Shown: piece after piece, positions 23,124-40,333 of the stretch
How positions within the stretch are numbered: the stretch's first letter is position 1
How the letters are laid out: each line of letters opens with the position of its first letter
From: Brevibacillus composti
Lineage (GTDB): Bacteria; Bacillota; Bacilli; Brevibacillales; Brevibacillaceae
Assembly: GCF_016406105.1 (NCBI RefSeq)
Contig: NZ_CP066308.1
Coordinates: 2,143,501 to 2,207,500, forward strand
DNA length: 64,000 bases
Direction: 5' to 3'
The notes under the pieces: model-generated
What the model was told of the DNA's origin: nothing
What the model saw: the letters and a program-made list of their open reading frames with translations, nothing else
The model's database searches: none
Position numbers and translations under genes: made by a program

Positions 23124-24782
23124 ATGCTGCGTTCCATCACGATTGGAGATTTGCTCGATGAGACAGCGGAGCGGTTTCCTGACCGCGAGGCTGTCGTGTA
23201 CCATGAGCGGGGGCTGCGTTACTCCTACTCCCAGTTCCAGATGATTTGCAATCAGGCAGCCAGAGGATTTCTTTCGCTCGGCATCCAAAAAGGGGAGAAT
23301 ATCGCCATCTGGGCGACGAATGTGCCGGAATGGGTGATCAGTCAGTTCGCCACGGCGAAAATGGGCGGCGTGCTGGTCACGGTGAATACGAGCTACCGCG
23401 TCCACGAGCTGGAGTACCTGCTGCGCCAGTCGGAGTCGACGACGCTCCTCTTGATTGATTCGTACCGAAACGCCAGCTATCTGGACATGATCAGGGAAAT
23501 CTGCCCCGAGCTGGACGAGTGCGAGCCCGGTCAGCTGCGCTCAGCGCGTTTGCCGCATCTGCGGAATGTGATCTACCTGGGCGAGGAAAGACAGCCGGGG
23601 ATGTTTCTCTGGCGTGACCTGATGGAGCGTGGAGTGGAATACCCGGATGAAGAAAGAGTCGCCCGGCAAAAGTCGCTTCACCCTGACGATGTCATCAATA
23701 TGCAGTACACCTCGGGTACGACGGGCTTTCCCAAAGGAGTCATGCTCTCCCATGTCAACATCGTCAACAATGCGATCAAAGTGGCAGAATGCCAGCGGTT
23801 GGATGAGACGGATCGCGTCTGCATACCCGTCCCGTTTTTCCATTGCTTCGGCTGTGTCATGGGGACGCTGGCTTCAGTGGCGACAGGGGCCGCGATGGTT
23901 CCGGTCATCGCCTTCGATCCGCAGGTGGTGCTCGATGTCGTCGAGGCGGAGCGATGCACGGCCCTGTACGGCGTGCCGACGATGTTTATCGCCGAGCTGA
24001 ATCACGAGAGCTTCCCCGAAAGAGACCTGAGCTCGCTGCGCACCGGCATCATGGCAGGATCGCCCTGCCCGATTGAAGTGATGAAGCGGGTCGTGGAAAA
24101 AATGGGCATTCGGGACATCACGATCGCCTACGGGCAGACGGAATCGTCTCCGGTGATTACGCAGACCAGGCCCGATGATTCGATTGAGCGGCGGGTGACA
24201 ACCGTCGGGCGGGCGCATGACGGCGTGGAAGTGAAAATCATCGATCCCGCCACCGGCGAGAGCTTGCCGCCAGGCGTGCAGGGGGAGCTCTGCACGAGGG
24301 GCTACCTGGTGATGAAAGGGTACTACAATATGCCGGAGCAGACCGCCAAGGTGATTGACCACGAGGGCTGGCTGCATACCGGCGATTTGGCCACGATGGA
24401 TGAGCACGGCTATTTCCGCATCACGGGAAGGCTGAAGGACATGATTATCCGCGGCGGGGAGAATATCTACCCGCGGGAGATCGAGGAGTTTCTCTACACG
24501 CATCCCAAGGTGCTGGATGTGCAGGTCGTCGGCGTTCCGGATGCCAAGTACGGCGAGCAGGTGCTGGCCTGCATCAAGGTAAAGCCGGGAGAAACGCTGA
24601 CGGAGGAGGAGCTGCTCGCCTACTGCGAGGGAAAAATCGCCCGGTTCAAAATCCCGCGCTACATCCAGTTTGTCACGGACTATCCGATGACGGCGTCCGG
24701 CAAGATTCAGAAATTCAAGCTGCGCGAACAAGCGATCGAGCTGCTCGGGCTGAGCGAGGAGGGCGGGTATTCGACCGCATGA
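23124..24782 (+). CDS. AMP-binding acyl-CoA synthetase (FadD-like)
   Basis: 552 residues. It activates a carboxylic acid as acyl-AMP and then acyl-CoA. Motifs: P-loop [46 protein letters not shown], and the C-terminal catalytic lysine in [14 protein letters not shown] medium- or long-chain fatty acid is likely; the exact substrate cannot be read. GGAGGGC precedes the ATG. No fatty-acid genes are adjacent. Confidence 0.9.
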
Positions 24783-33886: not shown

Positions 33887-33965
33887 TGTACAATTCACCC
33901 TTTCTTGCTATTTGGTTTTACTAAAACGCACACGCTATTATAGCACAGGTAAAAAGTTTTTGCAG

Positions 33966-34006
33966 AAAAAAATAGATCCAGCACGGTAAACACTTCGTGC
34001 CGGATC
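33966..34006 (-). terminator. terminator of the DUF3419 operon
   Basis: On the minus strand GATCCGGCACG (34006-33996) pairs with CGTGCTGGATC (33985-33975), then TATTTTTTT. It also closes the space between this operon and trhO. Confidence 0.88.
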
Positions 34007-34047
34007 GGATTTTGGCCAGACTGACCTGTCGACGAGACGGGGTCTTC

Positions 34048-34749
34048 TTAAGGGGCCGAAGAGACGGCCATATCTTCCACATGCTGCAGGATGTCTGTAT
34101 AGAGGCGGGTGTGGTAGTACATGCCGAGCTCCATTCCTCGCTCGATCAGCGCCTTGTTCTCTCCTTCATAGAGGCGAGCGGTCACTTCGTAGATTTCGTC
34201 CGCATGGGTGATATCCAGCGTTTCATGGTCGGTAAAATGAGCGAGATCGGCATGGTCCCCGTATTCGGCCGATGCGTAGGCCCCGACCAAGGGGGAGACG
34301 CGGGCGACGATTTCCTCGATCACGCCGAGCGCTGCCAGCCCCTCCGGGTAGGGATGGTGCAGGCAGAGGTCCATGATGGCCCGGTTGTAGGCGATCACAC
34401 CGACGCACGGCTTGCTATGCAGCCGCTCCTCCTCCGTGACGCCCAGTCCGTACAGGAACTTCTTGTAGGTCTCCACGTGAACCAGCGCGGTATTCATGCG
34501 CCCGTGCTCCTCAAACAAATTTTCCACCAGCGGCATCCGCAGCCGGTAGTCGGGGATGGCGGTCAGGATCGCCGCCAAAAAGCGCGGAAAGTGCTCGACG
34601 ACATGATACGTCTGAAGAGCGGCTTCCTTGGCTTGCCCCGGCGACACCTTTCTGTTTTTCATCGCTTGAAAAAGCGGGTGCTGCTCTACCTTGGCCCGCG
34701 TAAAAAGCGCGCGGGCGCGCTGCTTGATTTGGTCGTAAGGCGTTGTCAT
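34048..34749 (-). CDS. haem-oxygenase-like diiron protein (CADD/PqqC-like)
   Basis: 233 residues, all-helical. The putative metal set is well preserved: E80/E81 in ENLFEEHG, H91, E145/E146 in VIEEIV, and H175-x3-D179-x2-H182 (HETLDITH). This is the pattern of HDO enzymes such as Chlamydia CADD, which use two irons and oxygen for oxidations or C-C cleavage. PqqC and TenA share the fold but lack this full set. It is last in a four-gene operon, 10 bases after the GNAT gene, so it probably oxidises a product of the upstream transferases. Substrate unknown. Confidence 0.82.
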   Translation of the reverse strand: MTTPYDQIKQRARALFTRAKVEQHPLFQAMKNRKVSPGQAKEAALQTYHVVEHFPRFLAAILTAIPDYRLRMPLVENLFEEHGRMNTALVHVETYKKFLYGLGVTEEERLHSKPCVGVIAYNRAIMDLCLHHPYPEGLAALGVIEEIVARVSPLVGAYASAEYGDHADLAHFTDHETLDITHADEIYEVTARLYEGENKALIERGMELGMYYHTRLYTDILQHVEDMAVSSAP

Positions 34750-34759
34750 ACATGCCCTC

Positions 34760-35761
34760 CTACATCAATGTGATTTCGTGTGCCGCCAGCGACAGGTCGC
34801 GAGGCGGATCGCCGTATGCATAGGTGGTGGAGCGGAGCTTGATGGCCAGCGGGTTGCGGTAGGCTTTCGCTTCCTCGGGCGATAGGCCCGTAAATGCATA
34901 CGCGTACCGCCTCTGCCATCTGCGTGCCAGGTAGGCAAAAAATGCGGGCCGGTGGTCACGCGGCTCGGCGCTGGCGTAATGGGCGAGATAGAGATGGGGA
35001 AAAACGTTCCGCTTCGCCGGCAGGGCGATTGCTCCCCGCAAGCGAAAAGGGGCGTGGAGCATCCGCAGCAGCGGGGGAAGGGAGCGGGAGGCGATCAGCT
35101 TTCGAACAGGCGTCTGATCGACCAGCTTGCAAACAGCAAGCAGCCCATCCGCGCTCCGCAGGCCGAGAAAGACGCCCCCCTCCGCAAACCGCTCCCGATC
35201 TGCAAAGGCAAAGGAGAGCGGAACTGCCCACTGTTCGTAGTGCTTCCAGGCTTCGCCCGCAGAAATCTCCTCCACCTGTTTCCAGTCTCCCGCCAGGGGC
35301 AAAAACAGCGGCATGCCGAGATGAACCGACTGGCCGATGGGAGCGGCGGCCGGAAACAGCCGGTCCCCCCGCAAGAGAGAAGGCCGGTGTGAATTGCTGT
35401 CCCAGACGATCCCGTAGGCCCAGCGGCTTTCTCCCTGCAGCGCTTTGACCGCCTCGTGCACCAGGCGAAAGTAGGCGCGGGTCCCCGTGAACGCCGGATG
35501 CAAACGGAAATCATGCAGGTAGAGCGCGGGCGTCTTTTCTCCCGCGAGGAAGCGATCGATTCGCGTGACGCCGAGGCAGCCGATCAGCCGCTCCCGCCGC
35601 CATAGGCCGTAATAGCGCGACTCTCCCCATGTCCGGCCGAGCGCAAAAAAGTCGGGAGATCGGTCGATGACGAACAAGTCGCTCCCCGTGTCCGAAGTCG
35701 CGGCCAGATCGAGCAGGGCCTGATTATGCTCTTCCGTCAAAAGAGTAACCGCATAGTTCAT
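34760..35761 (-). CDS. GNAT-like acyltransferase, two-domain
   Basis: 333 residues. The N-terminal half (about 20-155) resembles a GNAT fold: GLWRRERLIGCLGVTRI, LYLHDFRLHPAFTGTRAYFRLV (acyl-CoA loop region, key words RLHPAF and GTRAYF). The C-terminal half may be a second, degenerate GNAT unit (KRNVFPHLYLAHYAS). Its ATG overlaps the DUF3419 stop by four bases, so it is translationally coupled. Acyl donor and acceptor are unknown. Confidence 0.7.
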   Translation of the reverse strand: MNYAVTLLTEEHNQALLDLAATSDTGSDLFVIDRSPDFFALGRTWGESRYYGLWRRERLIGCLGVTRIDRFLAGEKTPALYLHDFRLHPAFTGTRAYFRLVHEAVKALQGESRWAYGIVWDSNSHRPSLLRGDRLFPAAAPIGQSVHLGMPLFLPLAGDWKQVEEISAGEAWKHYEQWAVPLSFAFADRERFAEGGVFLGLRSADGLLAVCKLVDQTPVRKLIASRSLPPLLRMLHAPFRLRGAIALPAKRNVFPHLYLAHYASAEPRDHRPAFFAYLARRWQRRYAYAFTGLSPEEAKAYRNPLAIKLRSTTYAYGDPPRDLSLAAHEITLM

Positions 35762-36831
35762 GCCAAACGCCCGACCGTAAGCTGACGGTACATCATGGAG
35801 CGCTCCAGCGCGGTCATCTCCTGTGAAAGTGATTCATCCAATGTGAACCGGTCCTGCAGGAGCGCGGGGAGCGCGGGAGAAGCCAGCATGTTCCGATAGA
35901 GCAGGACCGCTTCCGGGGCTTTCGTCTGCAGGAGCGTGCGTGCGATCGCATCGCGCTGCGGAGCCGTTGCCCAGTCAAATACATTGGACAGGTAGAAGGC
36001 ATCAATCGCCTGCAGCTCGGGTTCGGCGTCCTGCAGGGCGACAGGCAGAACCGCCAGTTTGTGCAGATTCCGCCTCGCAGCTGCATACCCCTCTTCCGTC
36101 AGGTAGGCCGGTGCCCCGTCCGGATGCTCCCAGGCGTACGCAGCGTACAAGAGTTGGGTAAAAAAGTAATTGCCCGCCAACGGGCGCGCCTGCAGTTCCC
36201 GCTGAAACATCGACTCAAAAAACAAACCGAAATCCTGCTCGCCGGCCTGAGCGAACATGAACGCCGGAAAGAATTGCAAATGCGTCGTTTTGCTCAGCAG
36301 AATTCTCACGGCTGTGCGCCAGGTTTCGCTTTGCAGATACCGCCGGGAAAAGGCAATCTGCTCCTCGACGGTCCGGCAAGACAAAAGCTCCTGCCAGACC
36401 TCATCCCCGTAGACGTTATGGCGAAGATTATCCCCGATAAAGCGGTAAAAGCGCTCGGTGGCACCGCAATGATTCAAGCCTTGAGCGATCAGTCCGGGGT
36501 GCTCGTCCCAAAAGGAGCGCGCGTACGGAGGCAGCTCCACTCGCAGCCGGGCGTACGTTTCCAGCCGATCCGCCCCTTTGGTTTCACCGAGAAAGGCGAG
36601 GTACTCTTCGCGGGTGAGTACCGCAAGCGCGGCCTTTTTGCATTCGATCAGCGCCGCTTGGGCTGGATTCTGGTCGATGGCGTAGATTATATCCACGTCA
36701 TCGCAGAGCAGAGAAAAGGCTGTGCAGCCGCCAGATCCGATGGCGGCGATGCGGCGCGGGGAAAAACGCTCCGACAGGGCGAGCTCGACCCGGCTGTCTT
36801 CGCGGATTTGGGCAAAGTAAATGGCGGTCAT
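35758..36831 (-). CDS. DUF3419/BtaA-like SAM 3-amino-3-carboxypropyl transferase
   Basis: 357 residues from ATG at 36831, with GAGGAGGGA 10 bases upstream. The IAAIGSGGCTAFSLL glycine loop (about 28-42), AIDQNPAQAALIECKKAAL (about 50-68), YLAFLGE and ERFYRFIGDNL match BtaA-type (DUF3419) proteins. BtaA moves the 3-amino-3-carboxypropyl group of SAM to diacylglycerol in betaine-lipid synthesis. Its partner BtaB (N-methyltransferase) is absent, so another acceptor is likely. It overlaps both neighbours by four bases. Confidence 0.82.
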   Translation of the reverse strand: MTAIYFAQIREDSRVELALSERFSPRRIAAIGSGGCTAFSLLCDDVDIIYAIDQNPAQAALIECKKAALAVLTREEYLAFLGETKGADRLETYARLRVELPPYARSFWDEHPGLIAQGLNHCGATERFYRFIGDNLRHNVYGDEVWQELLSCRTVEEQIAFSRRYLQSETWRTAVRILLSKTTHLQFFPAFMFAQAGEQDFGLFFESMFQRELQARPLAGNYFFTQLLYAAYAWEHPDGAPAYLTEEGYAAARRNLHKLAVLPVALQDAEPELQAIDAFYLSNVFDWATAPQRDAIARTLLQTKAPEAVLLYRNMLASPALPALLQDRFTLDESLSQEMTALERSMMYRQLTVGRLA

Positions 36832-37574
36832 CGCGGGATTCCCTCCTCGAACTTTTTCAGCATGACATCGCGAAAGCGGGACCAGTGCTTCAGCATGAAC
36901 AAGCCCCGGTTCAAATCGTGCTTCACGCGCTTGCGCAGGGCGGGGGCGGGCGGGGAGGAGTGCAGGAGAATTTGGCTCCCGCCTTCCTCGGGATATATGC
37001 CTCTGGCTCCGAGCCAGGAGAGCAGCACAGGTGATGCCGCTTTCTTGCGGTATAAGGTATGCCGGCTGCACGTGCTCAGCTTTTGCAAATCAAGCTGTTC
37101 GATATGCTTCAGTCGATCAGCGAAGATGCGGGCGGTCTCTCGGGCTTTCTCCGGAATGGCCTCCCCCGTGAGTGCCGGATAGGAGGCGCGGCGGAACAGC
37201 GTTTTGAATATTATCATCAGCTCCGGGTTTTGCAATTCGGCCATGAGATGAAACGTCTCGGCAGGATACGCCTTTTGCAAAGATTCATAGAAATGAAGAA
37301 ACATTCGCAAATAGGCCCCTCGCTCCGAGAACAGGGGACCCAGGTACAAATAGTGCTCGCCATTGCAAGCGAAAGCGTGCAGCAGCTGAAAGGCTGCCAT
37401 TCCGTGTTCGCTTTTCGCCATGAGGATCTGCGGGTATGCCTCCCATTTGGAGGAAAGGTAGCGGGCCAGATCAAGAGAGTTCGGTTCATGCAGAGCCTTC
37501 TCTGCCAGACGGAGACAAGCTTGCCTCTGCTCAGAGGTCAGCTCGGAGACGGCGAATTGGTGATAGGTAAGCAT
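36828..37574 (-). CDS. acetyltransferase-like protein, first gene of the DUF3419 operon
   Basis: 248 residues; family not recognised with certainty. The layout QILMAKSEHGMAAFQLLHAF then HYLYLGPLFSERGAYLRMFLHFYESLQKAYP resembles GNAT strands 2-4 and helix 3, including a possible acyl-CoA loop (LFSERGAY). The C-terminus is basic. GGGAGGGAGCACC precedes the ATG. Its stop overlaps the DUF3419 start (ATGA), so the two act together. Confidence 0.68.
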   Translation of the reverse strand: MLTYHQFAVSELTSEQRQACLRLAEKALHEPNSLDLARYLSSKWEAYPQILMAKSEHGMAAFQLLHAFACNGEHYLYLGPLFSERGAYLRMFLHFYESLQKAYPAETFHLMAELQNPELMIIFKTLFRRASYPALTGEAIPEKARETARIFADRLKHIEQLDLQKLSTCSRHTLYRKKAASPVLLSWLGARGIYPEEGGSQILLHSSPPAPALRKRVKHDLNRGLFMLKHWSRFRDVMLKKFEEGIPR

Positions 37575-38083
37575 CGTCAGGTGCTCCCTCCCGTCACGGC
37601 ATGCGTAAATAGCGGAATCAAGATGTTTGCCATCAGGCGGACATGCCGGCGACCGCTATGCAAGATTATTCTGATGATACTCCAAATGCGCCTCTTGCAG
37701 AAAGCCCCATCTGCAAGGGGGAGGTTTTTGAGAGAGCCAATCCAGAATAATAGACGCTCGAAACGGGTAAAAAGTCATGTTGCGTCGCGAAAAGAAATGG
37801 ACACCGGTGCGCGTATTTACCACGACGCTTTTGGGAGACTTGGTTGGCAGAAATGAGACTCTTGTCCTGTTTCCTTTTTCCCTCTCTTGTGGTAATTACA
37901 CGTTCGGTTCGTTCGAATCAATATATAGTGGTATCTTTGTCGAAAAAATTATTGCCTTGCTAGATATAGTGGTGTCTAGTACACTGGAGGAAAGTTTTGA
38001 AACGCAAAATCTACCAAATATAGATCCCGTCATTGTACCCAATCGGCTGGCATAAACACACGGGGCGACGAAGGAGTTGCGGT
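37575..38083. other. divergent intergenic region between the DUF3419 operon and nrdA
   Basis: About 509 bases without a supported gene. It holds a hairpin CTTGCAGA (37694-37701)/TCTGCAAG (37710-37717) followed by GGTTTTTG. The NrdR-box pair lies at 37916-37972, and a promoter candidate TTGCCT (37952-37957), 17 bases, TCTAGT (37975-37980) lies before nrdA. A small open frame at 37777-38055 lacks a ribosome site and protein-like composition. No firm promoter for the minus-strand operon was found. Confidence 0.5.
37916..37972. promoter_or_regulatory. pair of NrdR-box candidates
   Basis: Box 1 (37916-37931) contains CAATATATAGTG and box 2 (37957-37972) contains CTAGATATAGTG, close to the consensus acaCwAtATaTwGtgt. 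They are 41 bases apart, about four helical turns, and box 2 lies in the nrdA promoter. NrdR represses ribonucleotide reductase genes when dATP is high. Confidence 0.65.
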
Positions 38084-40333
38084 ATGAACGCTGTAAGCAC
38101 GATTCAGATTCTGAAACGAAACGGAGAGCCGGAAGAGCTGCGGATCGACAAACTGAAAAAGGTGATCGGGTATGCCTGCAAGGATTTTCCGGCATGTGAC
38201 CCGCTTGAGCTGGAGATGGATGCCTGCATCCAGTTCCGCGACGGCATGACGACGAAAGAAATCCAGCGCATCGTCATGCAGACGGCTGTGGAAAAAACGA
38301 GTGTGGACACACCTGATTGGCAGTACGTGGCGGCCCGGCTGCTTGCATATGATCTGTACAAAGACGCCGCCATCAATCGCGGCTATCGCGGGCACTTCGG
38401 TTATGGTGATTTTACCGCGCTCGTCCATACATTGACGGAACAAGGCTTGTACGGCACGTATTTGACGGAGACATACAGCGACGAAGAGCTTGCGCAGCTG
38501 CAGGCGTACATCAAACCGGAGAGGGACGAGCTGTTCAACTACGCAGGGCTTCGGCTGCTGGCGGACCGCTACCTGATCAAGAACTATGACAAAGGCGTGA
38601 TGGAGCTGCCCCAAGAGCGGTTCATGATCATTGCGATGCATTTGGCGATGAAAGAACAGGACAGACTCAAGCATGCCAAGGATTTCTACGACGTGCTCTC
38701 CAAGCTGGAGATTACGGTGGCTACTCCGACACTGGCGAATGCGGGCACACCTTATCATCAGCTCTCCTCCTGCTTTATCGATACCGTGGACGACTCGCTG
38801 ACGGGCATCATGAATACGGCAGGTGCGACTTCGATGGTCTCCAAATACGGCGGCGGCGTCGGAATCTACCTGGGCAAGGTTCGCAGCCGCGGCTCTTCCA
38901 TTCGCGGCCACAAGGGCGCTTCCGGCGGCATCGTTCCCTGGACCAGGCTGTATAACCAGATTGCGATCAGCGTCGACCAGTTGGGTACCCGGGCGGGAGC
39001 TTTTGCCATCTACCTGGATGTCTGGCACGCGGACATTCTCGACTTCCTCCTGCTCAAGACGAATAACGGGGACGACCGGATGAAGGCGCATGACATCTTC
39101 CCGGGCGTATGCATACCGGATCTGTTCATGGAGCGGGTGAAGGAGCGGGGCAGCTGGTATCTCTTTGATCCGCATGAAGTGCGCGAGGTGATGGGCTTCT
39201 CCCTGGAGGACTCCTATGGCGAGGAATTTGAGCGCCGCTATGAGCTTTGCGTACAGGAGGAAAAGTTGACGATCAAGACGGAGATTCCGGCGATTGAGAT
39301 CATGAAGCGAATCATGGCCAGCGCGTTTGAGACCGGCACACCGTTTCTCTTCTTCCGCGATACCGTTAACCGCGCCAATCCGAACAAGCACAAAGGCATG
39401 ATCTACTCTTCCAATCTCTGCACGGAAATCATGCAAAACATGAGTCCCACCGTGTTCATCAGCGAAGAACTGGAGGACGGGGAAGTCGTCCATCGCTACA
39501 GACCAGGCGACTTCGTCGTATGCAACCTCTCCTCGCTGAACCTGGGACGCGTCCATTCCGCTGCGGATATCGCCCGGATCGTACCGATTCAGATGAGAAT
39601 GCTGGACAATGTGATCGATCTGAATTACTATCCGGTAAAGCAGGCCGAAGTGACGAATCAGAAATACCGCGCTGTCGGTCTCGGCACGAGCGGTTACCAT
39701 CAATACCTCGCGCAGAACGGAATCAAGTGGGAGAGCGAGGAGCATGTGGAAACAGCGGACAAGCTGTATGAGGAGATCGCCTACCATGCGATCAAAGCCT
39801 CGATGGAACTGGCCAAGGAAAAGGGAAGCTACCCGCTGTTTGCAGGCAGCGAGTGGGAGACGGGCGAGTATTTCGAGCGGCGCGGCTACTCGGACGAGCG
39901 CTGGATGACGCTGATGGCGGAGGTGGCGGAAAGCGGCATGCGCAATGCCTGGACCTTTGCTGTCGCTCCTACGGGGACGACCAGTCTGATCGCCGGCTCT
40001 ACCGCATCGACCGACCCGGTCTACGCGAAGTATTTCGTCGAGGAAAAACGAAGCGGCAATATCCCGCAAACGGCCCCCAACCTGAATGAAAAGACATTCT
40101 TTTTCTACAAGGAAGCGCATCGGATTGATCAGCAGTGGTCCATCCGGGCAGCGGGAGCCAGACAGCGGCATATCGACCAGGCCCAATCGTTTAACTTGTA
40201 CATCACCCCGCATATTTCTGCCCCCGATTTTCTCAACCTGTACATTCAGGCTTGGGAAAACGGGTTGAAAACCATCTACTACGTGCGGAATCAATCCGTA
40301 GAGGTGGAAGATTGCGTCAGCTGCTCGGCGTAA
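38084..40333 (+). CDS. nrdA: ribonucleoside-diphosphate reductase, alpha subunit (class Ia)
   Basis: 749 residues from ATG at 38084, 8 bases after AAGGAG. It reduces NDPs to dNDPs. An N-terminal ATP-cone (ILKRNGEPEELRIDKLKKVI) gives dATP feedback control and marks class Ia rather than the NrdE type. The core has TPTLANAGTP, LSSCFIDTVDDS and CNLSSLNLGR. The C-terminal CVSCSA is the swinging redox pair. nrdB and dut follow. Confidence 0.93.
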   Translation: MNAVSTIQILKRNGEPEELRIDKLKKVIGYACKDFPACDPLELEMDACIQFRDGMTTKEIQRIVMQTAVEKTSVDTPDWQYVAARLLAYDLYKDAAINRGYRGHFGYGDFTALVHTLTEQGLYGTYLTETYSDEELAQLQAYIKPERDELFNYAGLRLLADRYLIKNYDKGVMELPQERFMIIAMHLAMKEQDRLKHAKDFYDVLSKLEITVATPTLANAGTPYHQLSSCFIDTVDDSLTGIMNTAGATSMVSKYGGGVGIYLGKVRSRGSSIRGHKGASGGIVPWTRLYNQIAISVDQLGTRAGAFAIYLDVWHADILDFLLLKTNNGDDRMKAHDIFPGVCIPDLFMERVKERGSWYLFDPHEVREVMGFSLEDSYGEEFERRYELCVQEEKLTIKTEIPAIEIMKRIMASAFETGTPFLFFRDTVNRANPNKHKGMIYSSNLCTEIMQNMSPTVFISEELEDGEVVHRYRPGDFVVCNLSSLNLGRVHSAADIARIVPIQMRMLDNVIDLNYYPVKQAEVTNQKYRAVGLGTSGYHQYLAQNGIKWESEEHVETADKLYEEIAYHAIKASMELAKEKGSYPLFAGSEWETGEYFERRGYSDERWMTLMAEVAESGMRNAWTFAVAPTGTTSLIAGSTASTDPVYAKYFVEEKRSGNIPQTAPNLNEKTFFFYKEAHRIDQQWSIRAAGARQRHIDQAQSFNLYITPHISAPDFLNLYIQAWENGLKTIYYVRNQSVEVEDCVSCSA

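Follow-up and report, generated by a model that had tools for sequence, protein, structure and literature searches.

Two groups of characterized enzymes are among the closest parallels to the locus described here. The first is the BtaA/BtaB pathway of betaine lipids, in which BtaA, of the DUF3419 family, forms a homoserine ether of diacylglycerol together with methylthioadenosine (MTA) (excerpts of PMC6302742); transfer of the aminocarboxypropyl group from S-adenosylmethionine (SAM) yields MTA (excerpts of PMC10491745 and PMC6302742). The second comprises the heme-oxygenase-like diiron oxidases (HDOs), of which only about a dozen have been functionally validated and whose reactions on fatty or amino acids include N-oxygenation, C-C cleavage, desaturation, and rearrangements; one of them, CADD, builds p-aminobenzoate (pABA) from its own Tyr27 and Lys152 (excerpts of PMC13108848). 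In the 64,000-nucleotide stretch of Brevibacillus composti DNA analyzed in this work (the window), both families meet in an operon of four minus-strand genes, at positions 37574-34048, in the order GNAT1, DUF3419, GNAT2, and HDO (Table 1). All four enzyme families are known; what is new is their combination, a DUF3419 branch that is not BtaA, and an acyltransferase resembling N-myristoyltransferase (NMT) within a bacterial pathway. We propose, with somewhat more confidence than doubt, that the operon encodes a short pathway to an N-acylated, oxidized, SAM-derived amino-acid metabolite. The preliminary description of the locus knew of no described pathway with this set, and none turned up in the open-licence literature, a search outside which most subscription papers lie and which is no proof of absence. 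No paper joining DUF3419 with heme oxygenase-like proteins was found there among the matches listed, and those on DUF3419 and biosynthesis concerned, by their titles, algae, plants, and a fungus.

The junctions GNAT1/DUF3419 and DUF3419/GNAT2 are ATGA overlaps, and 10 bases separate the GNAT2 stop from the HDO start, whose ATG is preceded by a Shine-Dalgarno-like GGAGG. This direct reading bears out the earlier claim of a unit made from the same overlaps and spacing, and the anatomy supports a single transcription unit. The window genome (G000, 4.47 Mb) has one DUF3419 gene and one PF14518 gene, both in the operon. Within the family, 9 of 39 genomes carry a DUF3419 relative, and in four of the genomes (G000, G003, G021, and G025) the complete set of four is found in identical order, with DUF3419 proteins 65-67% identical. 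A scan of species genomes with the motifs YF[AS]QIRED and [IV]YAID[QVF]NP, which reaches near relatives only, gave 15 loci, and all 10 of those from Bacillota (L019-L028, labeled Brevibacillus, Anoxybacillus, Paenibacillus, Fredinandcohnia in three records, Bacillus in two, Shimazuella, and Alkalihalobacillus) are GNAT1-DUF3419-GNAT2-HDO in that order. Two of these are family genomes already counted, leaving 12 distinct operon loci (L012 and L014 are the same genomes as L019 and L020, and G299 is the same as L027; each was entered once). The gene order is kept in 12/12 Bacillota loci examined, a figure valid for this DUF3419 clade, and the rare co-occurrence of the four genes that the preliminary description had named as a refutation was not seen within it. 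The GNAT1 frame of L025 is short (157 aa). No HDO or GNAT match was found beside DUF3419 in the other five loci of the scan (L029-L033). As a side observation, L020, titled Anoxybacillus sediminis PCH 117, is genome G003 of the window's own genus, and its label appears wrong.

DUF3419 was found in 11 and PF14518 in 84 (E up to 1e-6) of the 398 Bacilli genomes of a single draw. Five of the genomes have the operon-type DUF3419, and in all five a PF14518 gene lies 1.1-1.3 kb away; an adjacent PF14518 gene was found in 0/6 of the other DUF3419 genomes, of which G008 alone has one, far from its DUF3419. Pairing with an HDO is a property of this DUF3419 clade, and the operon itself is rare (5/398 Bacilli genomes). 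The gene trhO was found in all 26 genomes of the genus examined; in the four that bear the operon the HDO adjoins trhO, and in G004, where the operon is absent, trhO (93% identical) and nrdA are separated by one small open reading frame, which identifies the operon as a cassette present or absent beside trhO. Rfam models gave no match at or above the gathering score within 33900-38300. In the 300 bases upstream of 12 operons, consensus strings for Fur, PhoP, MntR, Zur, and PerR were not enriched. CodY strings averaged 10.08 matches where 30 shuffles reached at most 9.75, a slight excess from which nothing is concluded as the regions are related.

Table 1. Genes of the operon in the window
Gene	Coordinates	Strand	Length and assignment
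GNAT1	36828..37574	-	248 aa; single GNAT-fold acyltransferase (by predicted structure); observed in the Bacillota operons alone
DUF3419	35758..36831	-	357 aa from ATG at 36831; BtaA superfamily, predicted SAM 3-amino-3-carboxypropyl transferase
GNAT2	34760..35761	-	333 aa; tandem-GNAT, N-myristoyltransferase-like fold; predicted amine N-acyltransferase
HDO	34048..34749	-	233 aa; heme-oxygenase-like diiron oxidase, CADD-like

The DUF3419 protein of the window scores 143.5 bits on PF11899 (cut-off 28.2), and E11, D12, G35, D53, P241, and D277 are invariant in an alignment of 23 DUF3419 sequences. In a tree of 24 such sequences (alignment and tree without L017, L024, L031-L034, L036, and L063), four BtaA-type rows form one clade (100/99) with the operon clade outside it; one of these rows has a BtaB-like gene beside it (L056), one a class I methyltransferase (L037), and the other two were typed by score. 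Once four ungrouped rows are set aside, a branch (91/90) separates the 13 rows with an HDO neighbor from the rest, and the branches of L060 and L059 are long and their placement uncertain. Compared with solved structures, the DUF3419 profile gave nothing convincing, the best match, to a methyltransferase, covering 39 positions with an E of 0.035. The absence of BtaB stated in the preliminary description holds in that a search of the window genome, run without a positive control, brought up no clear BtaB but just methyltransferases that match in part at 25-36% (best E 1.9e-9). What the protein has in common with the BtaA/BtaB pathway is the DUF3419 family, the conserved residues of the SAM-binding half, and the predicted aminocarboxypropyl transfer with MTA release; it differs in its separate clade, a QIRED motif in place of the QIWED of BtaA, the lack of a clear BtaB, and its HDO and acyltransferase partners. 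A betaine lipid proper was rejected as the product on the grounds that no clear BtaB was found in that search and that the clade is separate. The earlier label of BtaA-like transferase is retained for the type of transfer, to which the methionine-salvage neighbors of actinomycete relatives point, and given up as regards the BtaA clade, and the evidence supports a predicted aminocarboxypropyl-transferase-type protein outside that clade.

Those neighbors are mtnA, mtnB, mtnD, and mtnC, which lie near the DUF3419 gene of L029 (Micromonospora, G401), L059 (G491), and L060 (G531); L029 has an MTA phosphorylase there as well. The actinomycete genes claimed here were confirmed by tblastn or family search (mtnD of L059 and L060 by tblastn only), and the remainder were named by eye. 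Among 394 actinomycete genomes in one draw, DUF3419 was found in 6 and mtnC in 28. In the three genomes whose DUF3419 has a weaker, non-BtaA-type score, mtnC lies 5.7 kb (G401), 5.4 kb (G491), and 8.1 kb (G531) from it (3/3), whereas mtnC is absent from 3/3 genomes with BtaA-strength scores (G582, G647, and G689). The proximity of mtnC to non-BtaA DUF3419 therefore speaks for a reaction in which the aminocarboxypropyl group of SAM is transferred and MTA is set free. The DUF3419 of L029 is 44% identical to that of the window, and its neighbors include a phosphopantetheine carrier protein, an amino acid:[carrier protein] ligase-like protein (4h2w/3mey, E ~1e-11), a P450, and an ATP-grasp protein of the L-amino-acid-ligase type; because of this set, an amino-acid-like acceptor or product appears likelier than a glycerolipid. 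The same cluster (L029 1-12231, Micromonospora alfalfae) also has an MFS gene with the methionine-salvage set, and L030 (Cellulomonas) has DUF3419, ATP-grasp, and GNAT genes in common with it.

The HDO of the operon scores 79 bits on PF14518 (cut-off 28.9) and 48.1 on TENA_THI-4 (cut-off 22), and it matches 1rcw (CT610) and 8va9 at E ~2e-14. The full CADD-like E/H/E/H-D-H metal set first ascribed to it is present, since E81, H91, E145, H175, D179, and H182 all align with the residues of CADD (1rcw) that we take to be its metal ligands. All but E81 are invariant in 14 aligned HDOs, E81 being nearly so (the alignment is without L024, and the placement of L060 in it is uncertain). The likeness to CADD does not extend to the residues consumed by a CADD-type pABA synthase: Tyr27 and Lys152 are replaced by Phe27 and Pro153 in the window protein, neither Tyr nor Lys occurs in those two columns across the 14 HDOs, with the same uncertainty for L060, and the score on the CADD model TIGR04305 is 69.1 bits against a cut-off of 200. 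A CADD-type pABA synthase was rejected for these reasons, and by family and aligned ligands the protein is assigned to the HDOs. It resembles the HDOs of the CADD, PabS, BesC, PolF, and MboA pathways in superfamily and six-ligand set, and many HDOs use amino acids (excerpts of PMC13108848); it differs in the absence of the pABA-synthase residues and in its DUF3419 partner, for which no precedent was found in the open-licence literature.

Predicted structures are the main basis of the GNAT assignments; they gave GNAT folds for both of the proteins first noted as acyltransferase-like. GNAT1 has no match to an acyltransferase family in Pfam or NCBIfam up to E 1; its AlphaFold2 model (predicted local distance difference test, pLDDT, 92.3) has a plain GNAT fold with a best Z of 11.2, LasI being among the tied matches (Z 10.7, root-mean-square deviation 3.7, 158 residues), and relatives occur in the 12 Bacillota loci (alignment without L025, for its short frame). 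GNAT2 has only a sub-threshold match to Acetyltransf_1 (20.0 vs 20.7) and none to an NMT family in Pfam or NCBIfam up to E 1. Its model (pLDDT 85.6) is similar to NMT structures over 288 of 333 residues (Z 21.0, root-mean-square deviation 4.2), NMT accounting for all 50 matches listed in that comparison, and in Foldseek the query TM was 0.49-0.55 for Eis-like and other tandem GNATs vs mostly 0.58-0.65 for NMT. Sequence profiles against solved structures reached at best E 0.59 for GNAT2 and gave no match for GNAT1. GNAT2 is thus like eukaryotic NMT in its tandem-GNAT architecture over the whole length and in its aligned C-terminal end, and unlike it in an identity of only 9-12%, in the missing family match, and in being a bacterial protein of a biosynthetic operon. 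NMT uses its C-terminal carboxylate as catalytic base, and in human NMT1 the loss of the final two or three residues moves this role to a different carboxylate (excerpts of PMC7048800). Of the GNAT2 orthologs, 12/12 finish E-[LI]-[TI]-[LIY]-[ILMV] at the same point (alignment without L024; the last residue of L012, L013, and L014 is clipped there, and their full ends were read separately). Given the low confidence of the last residues of the model, this is only suggestive of a C-terminal carboxylate acting as base in GNAT2. As GNAT2 is predicted to be a tandem GNAT of NMT-like fold, N-acylation of an amine would be the likelier acyl step.

The pairing of DUF3419 with an HDO is also found in divergent form in actinomycetes. 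A plasmid of Mycobacterium riyadhense carries in a row a DUF3419 protein (27% identical to that of the window), an HDO (26%), a GNAT, and an MMPL-family RND transporter. The DUF3419-HDO-GNAT trio of G491 (L059) shows identities of 78, 75, and 63% with the riyadhense proteins, and a gene related to that of the MMPL transporter lies 5 kb further, on the opposite strand. Within the Mycobacterium-type genus of G491, 2/148 genomes have this DUF3419, both as DUF3419-HDO-GNAT sets; in the second of them, G858, its coordinates are those of the riyadhense plasmid. The Mycobacterium-type GNAT matches the GNAT2 profile (hhalign probability 91%, E 8.9e-7) and gives no profile match to GNAT1. In G531 (L060) the HDO is directly upstream of DUF3419, with GNAT, AMP-ligase, amidase, and acyl-CoA dehydrogenase genes also present. 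The occurrence of divergent sets in two Mycobacterium-type genomes, together with this further HDO-DUF3419 pair, argues that the pairing is not due to chance. The DUF3419 gene of the riyadhense plasmid (L034 8851-9990) is itself broken near the N-terminus, its first part lying in another frame with a stop; the G491 homolog is intact.

In the pathway that we favor, DUF3419 would release MTA from SAM and pass the 3-amino-3-carboxypropyl group on to a small acceptor resembling an amino acid, whose nucleophile would most likely be either a hydroxyl, the group used by BtaA, or an amine. GNAT2 would then use acyl-CoA to acylate a primary amine, probably the one carried by the new amino-acid unit, and the C-terminal carboxylate of GNAT2 might serve as base; GNAT1 could add a second acylation in Bacillota only. 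Finally, the HDO, with O2 activated at its dimetal site, would oxidize the amino-acid unit by desaturation, oxidative C-C cleavage, or N-oxygenation. Gene content, order, co-occurrence, families, and aligned ligands are observed, and the folds come from prediction; the acceptor, the acyl donor and its chain, the HDO reaction, and the order of the steps are those that we infer. Of the small metabolite or modified lipid suggested in the preliminary description, built by aminocarboxypropyl transfer, acylation, and oxidation, the enzyme types and their co-occurrence are retained, and a betaine lipid is argued against.

Several observations weigh against this pathway. The mtn link comes from actinomycete relatives: mtn genes were not found in the examined stretches around the Bacillota operons, the mtnA of the window genome lies far from the operon, and the Cellulomonas genome of L030 (G402), the tree neighbor of L029, is without mtnA. 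G582, a BtaA-type genome, has mtnA too, far from its DUF3419 and without mtnC, and G401 was the center of the draw, with its DUF3419 known beforehand, so that the cases free of selection are 2 of 3. L029 and L030 fall within the operon clade yet are without an HDO, and the clade therefore does not require one. The GNATs of L060, L029, and L018 give no profile match to GNAT2, which is for this reason tied only to the Mycobacterium-type GNATs. The PDB is crowded with NMT entries, and at the end of the GNAT2 model the pLDDT is down to 47 for the final three residues.

A bolder reading, which we offer tentatively and hold to be rather doubtful, is that of a new class of lipo-amino-acid natural products in Gram-positive bacteria, which a non-BtaA DUF3419 would build from the aminocarboxypropyl arm of SAM and a bacterial NMT-fold enzyme with C-terminal-carboxylate catalysis would N-acylate; a diiron HDO would complete them by acting on a homoserine-type ether or amine, for example by desaturation to an oxyvinylglycine-like warhead. 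Oxyvinylglycine and rhizobitoxine-type amino acids are oxidized homoserine ethers, and such a product would follow from BtaA-like chemistry and a desaturating HDO; the likeness of the operon to them is a chemical analogy alone, with no shared genes shown. Should the favored pathway be correct, the DUF3419 enzymes familiar from betaine lipids would belong to a wider toolkit using the SAM carbon chain in specialized metabolism, an NMT-like acyltransferase would operate in bacterial small-molecule biosynthesis, and the four genes would be a compact system for discovering a new HDO reaction. The minimal operon, conserved across several bacterial families, is a good target given the small number of validated HDOs (excerpts of PMC13108848).

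The product could alternatively be a homoserine-type membrane lipid, DUF3419 acting like BtaA on diacylglycerol and the lipid being N-acylated and oxidized instead of trimethylated by BtaB. We consider this unlikely. Membership of the DUF3419 family and the BtaA reaction described above (excerpts of PMC6302742) would agree with it, as would the MMPL exporter beside the mycobacterial version, the NMT-like fold of GNAT2, which fits long acyl chains, and the divergent phosphate-transporter gene beside the operon in L022, L025, and L026 (family tested for L022 only). However, a phosphate transporter is not a neighbor in L021, L027, L028, or the window, the PhoP-box is not enriched upstream of the operons, and no clear BtaB was found in the window genome. 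The BtaA-type rows form their own clade without the operon clade, and the settings of L029, beside a carrier protein and an amino acid:[carrier protein] ligase-like protein, and of L030, beside an L-amino-acid-ligase-type ATP-grasp protein, likewise speak against a lipid.

Less probable still is a signal or metallophore, for which DUF3419 would make a homoserine-lactone, azetidine, or nicotianamine-like unit and GNAT acylation would give an acyl-homoserine-like signal or an MMPL-exported metal-binding lipid. Cyclization of the SAM arm and its transfer into metallophores are known (excerpts of PMC10491745), and L059 has a siderophore-interacting reductase between mtnC and the MMPL gene, but this reductase occurs in one locus only and the Fur-box is not enriched upstream. 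LasI is one of many tied, generic structure matches of GNAT1, and the Bacillota operon holds no receptor or regulator. A last alternative, in which the HDO would be a self-sacrificing pABA synthase of the CADD type and the remaining genes unrelated passengers, can practically be discounted: although the best solved relatives of the HDO are CT610/CADD and 4-aminobenzoate synthases and it does match the CADD subfamily, the match is below the cut-off, the sacrificial Tyr and Lys are missing from the window protein and from the aligned HDOs (for L060 with the uncertainty given above), and the four genes are co-conserved. The N-acylated, oxidized amino-acid metabolite remains the reading that we prefer.

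Other DUF3419 contexts were encountered in the course of the survey. A second type in the genus (L015 1556-8953) is accompanied by a 908-aa class III aminotransferase, a 298-aa ribonucleotide-reductase-R2-like protein, likely a diiron protein, a Glu/Leu-type dehydrogenase, and, by eye, an MFS exporter, with a similar gene order by eye in L016 and L017. A third (L018 3338-13525) has a GNAT together with genes assigned by eye as AMP-ligase, P450, PEP-synthase-like, and UbiA-like. An O2-using oxidase near DUF3419 is thus a theme that recurs, its type varying. Neorhizobium has a BtaA-type gene beside a BtaB-like gene (L056) plus a second DUF3419 (L031 9001-10239), which is 47% identical to that of the window, the similarity ending after ~218 residues. 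The divergent transporter gene of L022, L025, and L026 is of the PHO4 family, as tested for L022, and is joined by a DUF47-like gene by eye. In the window itself, an AMP-ligase-like reading frame at 23577-24731 on the plus strand, ~10 kb from the operon, is 26% identical to the AMP-ligase of L060 (E 7e-18).

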